Source: Candidatus Collinsella stercoripullorum
GTDB lineage: Bacteria; Actinomycetota; Coriobacteriia; Coriobacteriales; Coriobacteriaceae
DNA: 64,000 nucleotides
Assembly (NCBI GenBank): GCA_019117005.1
Contig: DXAO01000007.1
Location: 1 to 64,000, forward strand
Direction: 5' to 3'
Positions within the stretch are counted from its first letter, which is position 1; each line of letters starts with the position of its first letter. Positions 28,771-32,158 of the stretch are shown in pieces. The notes beneath the pieces are model-generated. The model was not told the origin of the DNA and searched no databases. It worked only from the letters and a program-made list of their open reading frames with translations. The translations under genes and the position numbers were made by a program.

Positions 28771-31416
28771 TTACGCCTCGTAGCTCTGCGGCTCGCGGCC
28801 GTAGTACGCGTCGAGGTAGAGCTCGCGGATCTCGCTCATCAGCGGGTAGCGCGGGTTGGCGCCGGTGCACTGGTCGTTGAAGGCCTGCTCGGTCATATCG
28901 TCGAGGGTCTCCAGGAAATACTTCTCGTCGACGCCGTACTCGGCGATGGTCTTCTTGATGCCGATGGTCTCCATGAGGTCCTCGAGCTTCTGGATGAAGT
29001 TCTCGAACACCTCGCGGTCGTCGGCGCCGGTGCAGCCGCAGTAGCGGCCGAGGTCGGCGTAGTCCTTGAGCGCGTGCGGGTACTGGTACTGGGAGAAGGT
29101 GCCCATCTTGACGGGCTTCTCCGCGGCGTTGTAGCGCATGACGCGGGTGAGGATGACGGCGTTGGCCAGACCGTGGGGCAGGTGATGGAAGGCGCCGAGC
29201 TTGTGGGCCATGGAGTGGTTGACGCCCAGGAACGCGTTGGCGAAGGCCATGCCGGCCAGGCAGGAGGCGTTGTGCATCTCCTCGCGGGCGTGCGGGTCGT
29301 CGGCGCCCTTCTCGTAGGCCGCCGGCAGGTTCTCGAACACGAGCTTGGCGGCGCGCATGGACAGGCCGCGCGTGTAGTCGGAGCTCATGATCGAGACGTA
29401 GGACTCGATGGCGTGGGTCATGACGTCGATACCGGAGGCGCAGGTGAGGCCCTTCGGGGCGGTCATGGCGTTGTCGACGTCGACGATGGCCATGTTCGGC
29501 ATGAGGGCGTAGTCGGTGATCGGCCACTTGATGCCGGTCTCGGCGTCGGTGATGATGGCGAACGGCGTCACCTCGGAGCCGGTGCCCGAGGAGGTCGGGA
29601 CGGCGACGAAGTAGGCCTTCTCACCGAGCTTGGGGAAGGTGAAGACGCGCTTGCGGATATCCATGAAGTCCATGGCGGCGTCCTCGAAGTTGACCTCGGG
29701 GTGCTCGTACATGAGCCACATGATCTTGCCGGCGTCCATCGCGGAGCCGCCGCCGACGGCGATGATGACGTCGGGCTCGAACAGGCGCATGCGCTCGGCG
29801 CCCTTCTGGGCGTCCTGCAGGCGCGGGTCGGGGCAGATGTCGTAGAACGCATCGTGCGCGACGCCCATCTCATCGAGCTTGGCCTCGATGGCGCGGCAGT
29901 TGCCGTTCTTGTAGAGGAAGGAGTCGGTCACGATGAAGGCGCGCTTCTTGCCCATGACGCGGCCGAGCTCGTCGAGGGCGACGGGCGTGCAGCCCTTCTT
30001 GAAGTAGATCTTCTCGGGAGCCCTGAACCAGAGCATGTTCTCGCGGCGCTCGGCCACGGTCTTGATGTTGAGCAAGTGCTTCACCCCAACGTTCTCGGAG
30101 ACGGAGTTGCCACCCCAGGAGCCGCAGCCCAGCGTGAGGGACGGCTTCATGCCGAAGTTGTACAGGTCGCCGATGCCGCCCTGGGAGGACGGGGTGTTGA
30201 TCACGATGCGGCACGCCTTCATGGTGTCCTCGAACAGCGCGATCTTCTCCTTCTCGGCGGGGTGCACGTAGAGGGACGCGGTGTGGCCCGGGCCGCCGGC
30301 GAGCACGAGGTGCTCGGCCTTGTCGACGGCCTCCTGGAACGTCTTGGCGTGGTACATGGCCAGGACGGGGGAGAGCTTCTCGTGGCTGAACTCCTCGGTC
30401 GCGGGGTCGGTGGAGGTGACCTCGGCGATCAGGATCTTGGTCTTGGGCGGCACGGAGATGCCGGCGAGCTCGGCGATCTTGGCGGCGGGCATGCCGGGGA
30501 TGCGGTGGTCGAGCGCGCCGTTCTTGAACATGGTATCGCGCAGGGCCTCGAGCTCCTTGCCCTTCTTGACGAAGTAGCAGCCGCGGCGCTCGAACTCGGC
30601 CTTCACCTGGTCGTACACGGAGTCCAGCGCGGTGACGGACTGCTCGGACGCGCAGATCATGCCGTTGTCGAAGGTCTTGGAGTGGATGATGGAGTTGACC
30701 GCGTTCAGGATGTCGGCGGTCTCGTCGATGACGACGGGGGTGTTGCCGGCGCCGACGCCCAGGGCGGGCTTGCCCGAGGAGTAGGCGGACTTGACCATGC
30801 CGGGGCCTCCGGTGGCCAGGATGATGTCCACGTCGCTCATGAGGCGGCTGGTGAGCTCGAGGGTCGGCTTGTCGACCCAGCCGATGATGCCCTCGGGGGC
30901 GCCGGCCTTGACGGCGGCGTCGAGCACGACCTTGGCGGCGGCGATGGTGCACTGGGCCGCGGCGGGGTGCGGGGAGATGATGATGGCGTTGCGGGTCTTC
31001 AGGCAGATGAGGCACTTGAAGATCGCGGTGGACGTGGGGTTGGTGGTGGGGATGACCGCGCCGACCACGCCGATGGGCTCGGCGACCTTGGTGATGCCGT
31101 AGGCCTCGTCGCGCTCGATCACGCCGCAGGTCTTGGTGTTCTTGTAGGCGTTGTAGATGTACTCGGCTGCGTAGTGGTTCTTGATGACCTTGTCCTCCAG
31201 CACGCCGCGCTTGGTCTCCTCGACCGCCATCTTGGCGAGCGGGATGCGCTGCTTGTTGGCTGCCATGGCCGCCTCATAGAAGATCTTGTCCACCTGCTCC
31301 TGGGTGAAGGTGGCGAAGACCTTCTGGGCCTCTCGCATGCTCGCGAGCTTTGCCTCGAAGGCCTCGATCGAGTCTACGATTGCGGGGGCGGCTTCGACCG
31401 TTGGCTTTTTTGCCAT
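28771..31416 (-). CDS. adhE: Bifunctional acetaldehyde-CoA/alcohol dehydrogenase
   Basis: AdhE reduces acetyl-CoA to acetaldehyde and then ethanol, consuming two NADH, and is a key redox sink in fermenters. The 881-residue protein has the normal length. Residues 1-about 440 form the acylating aldehyde dehydrogenase with catalytic Cys255 in NGMICASEQ. Residues about 450-881 form the iron alcohol dehydrogenase with [10 protein letters not shown] (NAD) and the metal His residues in [17 protein letters not shown]. AdhE assembles into filaments called spirosomes. GAAAAGGAG precedes the ATG. The long upstream region with two identical operator-like sites suggests regulated expression. Confidence 0.97.
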
Positions 31417-31515
31417 GCTGAGCTCCTTTTCATCGGTGCCTGCCTATGGTGCCCATTGTATGGACACCCCACGCGCGCGGGGCGCTTGTAGGATAGTTTG
31501 CCGCAAACGGTACTA

Positions 31516-31531
31516 ATGAAACGCTTCAATA
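31516..31531. promoter_or_regulatory. LacI/CcpA-type operator candidate, adhE-proximal copy
   Basis: ATGAAACGCTTCAATA contains TGAA-ACGC-TTCA, an imperfect palindrome centred on CG as in LacI-family operators. It is identical over 16 bases to the copy at 31661-31676. It lies 100 bases upstream of the adhE ATG. Confidence 0.55.
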
Positions 31532-31660
31532 GCAGAAAATTGACGAAATCATGACAGACCTGTGAAGACAAACGTGCAGGAACAAAGTGGGTAGGTTTTT
31601 GAAATCGGCACGTAAGAGGGTTGGAGAGCATGAACCAATCAATTGCTGCGCTCTCGAAAT

Positions 31661-31676
31661 ATGAAACGCTTCAATA
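31661..31676. promoter_or_regulatory. LacI/CcpA-type operator candidate, distal copy
   Basis: An exact 16-base copy of the site at 31516-31531, offset by 145 bases. The spacing would allow one tetrameric regulator to bridge both sites. Confidence 0.55.
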
Positions 31677-31908
31677 TTGAGCGGCTTGCATTTTTGCCAT
31701 GTTCTGTGAACGCATCGGTGCAAGCGGCATGACCGGAAGGACGGCCCCCGTCATCGCTGTGCCGCCTGCCCGCGTTTCGCGCGGGATTCACGGGCGGCGA
31801 TCCGCTGATATCATGTATACGGGGCGTGCCCATCGGGGATCGGACCGGCCGCCGCCCCGACTTCTCGGGGCGCATGTGTGGATTTCGCATAGCTTCGACG
31901 TTCTGTGA

Positions 31909-31914
31909 TATAGT
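31909..31914 (+). promoter_or_regulatory. Extended -10 promoter of rpmB
   Basis: TGATATAGT provides TG, one spacer base and TATAGT, 56 bases before the rpmB ATG. No -35 match is needed for an extended -10 promoter. Confidence 0.5.
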
Positions 31915-31969
31915 GCAATGCTGTTTGTTCACGCGGCTTCGAGTTCCGCCGCCCAAGGAGGGTTACGAC

Positions 31970-32158
31970 ATGTCTAAAGTTTGCGAAATCTGCGGTAAGC
32001 ACCCCGTGGCAGGGCGTTCCATCAGCCACTCCCACCGCGTCGCCATCCGCAAGTTCCGTCCCAACATCCAGCGCGTCTACGTCGTCGTCGACGGTCACCG
32101 TCGCAAGATGAACGTGTGCACCAACTGCCTCAAGTCCGGCAAGGTGGCCCGCTCCTAA
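31970..32158 (+). CDS. rpmB: Ribosomal protein bL28, zinc-binding form
   Basis: This 62-residue large-subunit protein begins MSKVCEICGKHPVAG and contains SHSHRVAIRKFRPNIQRV. CEIC near the N-terminus and CTNC near the C-terminus form a complete four-cysteine zinc site, so this is the C+ paralogue rather than the zinc-independent form. AAGGAGG precedes the ATG at ideal spacing. It is monocistronic, with a strong promoter and a textbook terminator. Confidence 0.97.
   Translation: MSKVCEICGKHPVAGRSISHSHRVAIRKFRPNIQRVYVVVDGHRRKMNVCTNCLKSGKVARS

Follow-up and report, generated by a model that had tools for sequence, protein, structure and literature searches.

Paired operators upstream of adhE point to a LacI-family protein predicted to control glycolysis, ethanol fermentation and its own gene in Coriobacteriaceae

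Two identical 16-mers lie upstream of adhE in a 64,000-nucleotide stretch of DNA from Candidatus Collinsella stercoripullorum (hereafter the window). Judging from sequence comparison, they are probably operators of one autoregulated LacI-family protein, which is predicted to regulate lower glycolysis and ethanol fermentation in Coriobacteriaceae. The sites are conserved at three promoters, and the candidate regulator is present together with them. Collinsella and its relatives are common gut fermenters. Among the matches listed in a search of the open-access literature, no regulator of central carbon genes in Collinsella or Coriobacteria was described. With a candidate protein, a 16-bp operator and a set of core targets (gapA, adhE and the regulator gene itself), carbon control in this family can be tested directly. 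If the prediction is true, one more lineage has a LacI-family regulator in charge of glycolysis, with a likely activating role, and the operator pair gains interest with a regulator and gapA attached to it.

A pair of operators upstream of adhE

The gene presumed to be under control, adhE (28771..31416, minus strand), encodes a bifunctional acetaldehyde-CoA/alcohol dehydrogenase (NCBIfam PRK13805, 1343.8 bits versus a cut-off of 951), and its nearest named relative, from Collinsella tanakaei An368, is 94% identical. Upstream of it, ATGAAACGCTTCAATA occurs exactly at 31516-31531 and 31661-31676, with a start-to-start distance of 145 bp, just as a first-pass annotation of this DNA had reported. 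At up to three mismatches, the two copies are the sole matches in the window, compared with a mean of 0.02 matches in 100 shuffles and two matches in none of the 100. No further copy with up to two mismatches is present in the whole 2.22 Mb genome. The surrounding region is AT-richer, again as annotated: AT content is 44.6% over 31417-31970 and 55% between the sites, versus 29.5% for the window.

On the strand of adhE, each of the two sites consists of ATTGAAGCGTTTCAT plus one base. The proximal operator (ATTGAAGCGTTTCATT, 31515..31530, minus strand), which is the first of the two annotated sites, is centred at about -75, counted from the transcription start inferred for adhE, and is near-invariant in seven aligned genomes whose surrounding DNA can hardly be aligned. 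The distal operator, the second annotated site (ATTGAAGCGTTTCATA, 31660..31675, minus strand), is centred about -220 and lies 145 bp from the proximal one. The sites had been described as a CG-centred palindrome; the CG centre is present, but the symmetry is imperfect, with one A/C mismatch adjoining the central CG of TGAAACGCTTCA.

The inferred -10 box of adhE, TACAAT (31455..31460, minus strand), is aligned with TATAGAAT in six relatives, and no consensus -35 was found at 17 or 18 bp from it. A ribosome-binding site, AAAAGGAG, was named by eye at 31423..31430 (minus strand). A second conserved near-palindromic element, TACCGTTTGCGGCAAAC (ACCGTTTGCGG here and ACCGTTTACGG in relatives), occupies 31496..31512 on the minus strand, a few bases from the proximal operator. 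This element is exact in the six other genomes of the clade and is possibly the site of another factor.

On the other side of the intergenic region, a divergent rpmB-like ORF of 62 aa (31970..32158, plus strand) was identified by eye as ribosomal protein L28, with no NCBIfam model matching at 1e-20. Among 29 loci, rpmB points the same way as adhE in 18 and away from it in 7, and none was called in 4. Since the operators stay upstream of adhE whatever the orientation of rpmB, including the 18 loci where both genes run in the same direction, rpmB is probably not a target. An RNA leader was also rejected, the single Rfam match being sub-threshold (17.1 bits versus a gathering score of 50), as was a terminator-like hairpin on the distal site, which is near chance (2 found versus 1.2 expected).

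The adhE operators are conserved in the genus amid divergent DNA

Sites were scored out of 12 against TTGAA-N-CG-N-TTCAA, with a threshold of at least 10 within 300 bp upstream of the gene. An adhE match is present in 42 of the 43 genomes of the genus. All 39 genomes with at least 360 bp of upstream sequence have a site before adhE, and the addition of G016 brings the count to 40/40 testable genomes; left out are G033 (55 bp of upstream sequence), G036 (partial gene) and G032 (no adhE match). In G016 (L285), adhE is seemingly frame-broken, and its two operators are present, 145 bp apart.

The pairing of the sites, too, is conserved: two or more are found in 40/40 testable genomes, counting sites of at least 9/12 with a CG centre for the 39 and adding G016. 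Within the seven-genome clade to which the window belongs, both operators stand out amid DNA that is otherwise hardly alignable. A spacing of 144-148 bp is kept in 11 genomes, where the DNA between the sites is near random (median pairwise identity 0.482 versus 0.458 for shuffled sequence), with one close pair at 0.76 identity. The overall range is 18 to 158 bp: the C. aerofaciens-like group has the shortest spacing, 18 bp, two genomes have 118 bp, and in other clades values of 155 and 158 bp occur in one genome each and of 51 and 64-65 bp in a clade with 2-3 sites.

Two exact copies in one intergenic region might in principle be a chance repeat or a non-regulatory duplication of a short stretch. 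We give this explanation next to no probability, as two matches never arose in the shuffles mentioned above, and it is refuted by conservation: the sites are kept in every testable genome, yet the DNA between them is near random in the 11 genomes of like spacing.

One counterexample was found, the MAG locus L035, where an adhE that is 92% identical has upstream DNA without a site. Upstream of adhE in other Coriobacteriia, picked by their record titles, 0/11 regions reach 10/12; in other bacteria, 3/66 do.

The operator has the form of a LacI-family site

The 16-bp operator consensus is ATTGAARCGYTTCAAT, an even palindrome with a central CG, as in LacI-family operators. When the windows were chosen without regard to the centre, CG was found at the centre in 150/164 target windows versus 20/462 in control loci. 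About 1-3% of shuffled target upstream regions reach 10/12, as do 6/135 unrelated upstream regions, among which are one adhE under a mis-called start and one G037 reductase that is a suspected target. The 135-region set was used instead of an earlier control set (267 regions, 39 scoring at least 10) that was contaminated by mis-called target starts and motif-selected loci. The LacI-type assignment made in the first-pass annotation is thus borne out by the form of the operator and its CG centre, and a candidate LacI-family regulator was found, as described below.

A different regulator deserves consideration at this promoter. The adhE gene is a classic target of Rex, whose operator is TTGTGAA-N4-TTCACAA and which does not need a CG centre. 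Redox control by Rex would suit an NAD-linked enzyme, and the GAA....TTC core is common to the Rex consensus and our sites. This explanation is nevertheless very improbable: the CG centre prevails among the target windows, the flank of the site lacks the TTGTG of a Rex operator, and the same sites mark a lacI gene in 41/43 genomes. The text of PMC4052901 available to us describes LacI-family motifs as mostly even palindromes with a CG centre.

Sites at gapA, at a lacI gene and at a few further genes

At up to one mismatch, TTGAANCGNTTCAA occurs at five places in the genome that contains the window: two at adhE, two at gapA-pgk (33 bp apart) and one at a lacI gene. The genome-wide search for sites near metabolic genes was therefore positive, with adhE, gapA and lacI as the only hits; tal/tkt, ldh and pfl were not among the targets at this threshold. 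A large catabolite regulon in this genome is thus not supported at this threshold, as these five sites fall at three promoters only. At two mismatches, there are 37 matches versus 46 for a reversed-pattern control, and weak sites were left uncounted because they do not exceed this control.

The identity of gapA is supported by TIGR01534 (415.9 bits versus a cut-off of 367). Sites of at least 10/12 precede gapA in 41/42 genomes, and in G019 no site is found within the 191 bp of sequence upstream of the gene. Together with eno and pyk, seen in one genome each, the gapA sites sustain the earlier suggestion of a link to carbon metabolism. The adhE gene itself may be controlled by carbon source.

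Among the pattern matches listed are eno (G025), pyk (G017) and a lactaldehyde reductase gene adjoining lacI (G037), in one genome each, and ndk, encoding nucleoside diphosphate kinase, in G004, G010, G028, G029 and G034; these sites were found via the pattern itself and are not a fair sample. One representative of each of these genes passes its NCBIfam cut-off. At the ndk loci (L263, L260, L006, L031 and L011), paired sites have a spacing of 131 bp in G029 and of 18 bp in both G004 and G034. In G012 (C35, L273), a rhamnulokinase-like gene that scores just under the model cut-off and shares its contig with lacI has a pair of TTGAANCGNTTCAA-like sites upstream, spaced by 33 bp; these may belong to another regulator. 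A further sequence, ATGAACCGCTTCAT, is recurrent in many genomes among the matches listed, and at L173 it adjoins a gene that by eye is formate dehydrogenase-like.

A candidate regulator that carries its own site

The gene of the candidate regulator (L217/L221), a LacI-family protein, lies outside the window at G000:C21:28654-29724 and has a site of its own upstream. A search for LacI-family proteins with PF00356 at 1e-5 gave 1 to 12 matches per genome, and seven in the genome of the window. At this threshold, G017 and G022 have a single match each, which in both is the orthologue of the C21 protein. Because it is the sole family member in these two genomes, and both retain the sites, we propose the C21 protein as the regulator.

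At 1e-50, a C21 orthologue is found in 41/43 genomes of the genus, the other two having a diverged copy (G023) and an incomplete copy (G042). In the order, orthologues at 1e-60 are present in 59/247 sampled genomes, all from one family (by inference Coriobacteriaceae) and from genera g1, g2, g3, g4 and g6; none was found at this threshold in the four listed g5 genomes or in the remaining genomes of the 247-genome sample. The threshold of 1e-60 misses G023 and G042, and diverged copies elsewhere are therefore possible.

Sites of at least 10/12 precede this lacI gene in 41/43 genomes of the genus, that is, in 41/41 with a clear orthologue, at a distance of 24-98 bp from the gene start. Elsewhere in the family, the corresponding count is 17/18, the exception being G171, whose lacI has no site. 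The best score before the lacI copy of G023 and G042 is 7, and nothing reaches 9 before the glucokinase-like gene that precedes it. In both genomes (L339 and L342), lacI is located directly behind this ROK-family gene, a possible link to glucose metabolism; the G023 gene scores 240.6 bits, under the model cut-off of 260.

A recognition helix of the form V[SA]LG[TS]VSN is present in 60/60 orthologues read, although most of this pattern served to pick the reading frame; no locus failed. None of the other six LacI-family proteins of the genome has the LG..N recognition pattern. No NCBIfam equivalog model was passed by the C21 protein. In 56/60 orthologues, a variable linker leads to a conserved peptide (NLGxYL or DISGYL) at the extreme C-terminus.

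It could also be that another LacI-family protein of the genome binds the sites, or that several do with overlapping specificity, with the C21 protein as one binder among others. The presence of seven family members in one genome would allow this, and in bifidobacteria operators common to AraQ and MalR1 are described in the accessible part of PMC6882875. We consider this alternative quite improbable, given that G017 and G022 keep the sites with the C21 orthologue alone, that the sites mark this very lacI gene throughout most of the genus and that the LG..N pattern is confined to it among the seven.

Operator positions moderately favour activation of gapA and adhE

Transcription start sites were inferred from -10 boxes picked clade by clade. 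At gapA, the centre of the nearest operator falls between -75 and -78 in 41/41 genomes, counted from the inferred start, three of these entries being weaker 9/12 sites admitted by position. For adhE, among operators upstream of -40, the nearest one falls in most cases within -65 to -69 or -75 to -78 and in two genomes at -87, in steps close to one helical turn; two rows of this comparison are distorted, by a non-CG window in G029 (-59) and by a 9/12 second site in G034. No consensus -35 was seen at the gapA and adhE promoters. At lacI, the site lies by eye on or beside the -10/-35 region.

We then propose a model for the action of the C21 protein. It would bind the operators at adhE and gapA-pgk, and some relatives would have further targets in eno, pyk, ndk and the lactaldehyde reductase gene. 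It would activate gapA and adhE when bound at about -65, -76 or -87 relative to the start, at promoters with weak -35 boxes, and repress its own promoter from its site on or beside the -10/-35 region, both signs being read from operator position only. The effector, we would guess, is a sugar phosphate or another glycolytic intermediate. For AraQ, a LacI-family protein of Bifidobacterium, sites upstream of the -35 box are read as activating and sites on the promoter as repressing in the portion of PMC6882875 available to us. Since AraQ is thus read as an activator from like positions, activation of gapA and adhE combined with self-repression is moderately favoured over pure repression.

The opposite sign has arguments of its own. 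LacI-family proteins are mostly repressors, and GalR represses through upstream operators. The regulator could accordingly be a plain repressor of gapA, adhE and itself, whose upstream binding blocks activation or represses via upstream operators, possibly by looping. In five genomes an extra adhE operator is centred at -25, a repressing position; at least two adhE sites are kept in all testable genomes, and 11 of these hold the 144-148 bp spacing across a mostly unalignable spacer. We regard plain repression as possible but somewhat doubtful, because the weak -35 boxes have the proximal operators upstream of them, at about -65 to -87 and, at gapA, at a nearly fixed distance, and because sites so placed are read as activating for the bifidobacterial analogue (PMC6882875, in the part available). 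The variable adhE spacing also speaks against it, and so does the weak helical-phase test (p ~0.08 at 10.5 bp).

These last points bear on looping as well, which the first-pass annotation had suggested for the pair. The pairing of the sites stands, but looping is unproven, because the inferred promoter lies downstream of both adhE sites, the C. aerofaciens-like group has a spacing of only 18 bp and the phase test is weak. In kind, the first reading was largely right.

Returning to activation, it is tempting to speculate that the protein acts from fixed upstream positions to switch on glycolysis and ethanol fermentation, and that its C-terminal peptide is what couples the paired operators or contacts RNA polymerase or a partner. 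This more elaborate version is unlikely; to our knowledge, a C-terminal peptide contact of this kind has no precedent among LacI-family proteins.

Comparison with known carbon regulators

CcpA had been named along with LacI in the first-pass annotation. The candidate belongs to the same family as CcpA of Firmicutes and is likewise linked to carbon control, but it differs in the small number of targets found and scores 96.3 bits on the NCBIfam ccpA equivalog model versus a cut-off of 442.35, which rules out CcpA identity.

The closest functional analogues, as far as the accessible parts of the sources go, are AraQ and MalR1 of Bifidobacterium, LacI-family proteins like the C21 protein and regulators of central carbon metabolism. 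AraQ binds gap, eno, pyk and its own gene in gel shifts, according to the available portions of PMC6882875 and PMC4746261. Its operator is given as TGTGAGCGCTCACA in the part of PMC4746261 at hand, and differs from ATTGAARCGYTTCAAT at the outer positions. AraQ is located by arabinose genes in 6/10 genomes (same source and extent), whereas no arabinose genes were recognised beside the C21 lacI in the 12 loci examined. Set beside the AraQ regulon of gap, eno, pyk, fermentation genes and AraQ itself, the one predicted here comprises gapA and the regulator itself widely and adhE, with eno and pyk in one genome each, and the two are likened by function, not by protein orthology.

LacI-family regulators of glycolytic genes are described from several other lineages. 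The words 'Coriobacteri' and 'Collinsella' are absent from the main text of PMC4052901 in the form available to us. That text presents GapR, PckR and GluR of Alphaproteobacteria and FruR/Cra as regulators of this type that are non-orthologous between lineages and in some cases autoregulated. They share the family and the glycolytic role with the C21 protein, and differ from it in lineage and motif.
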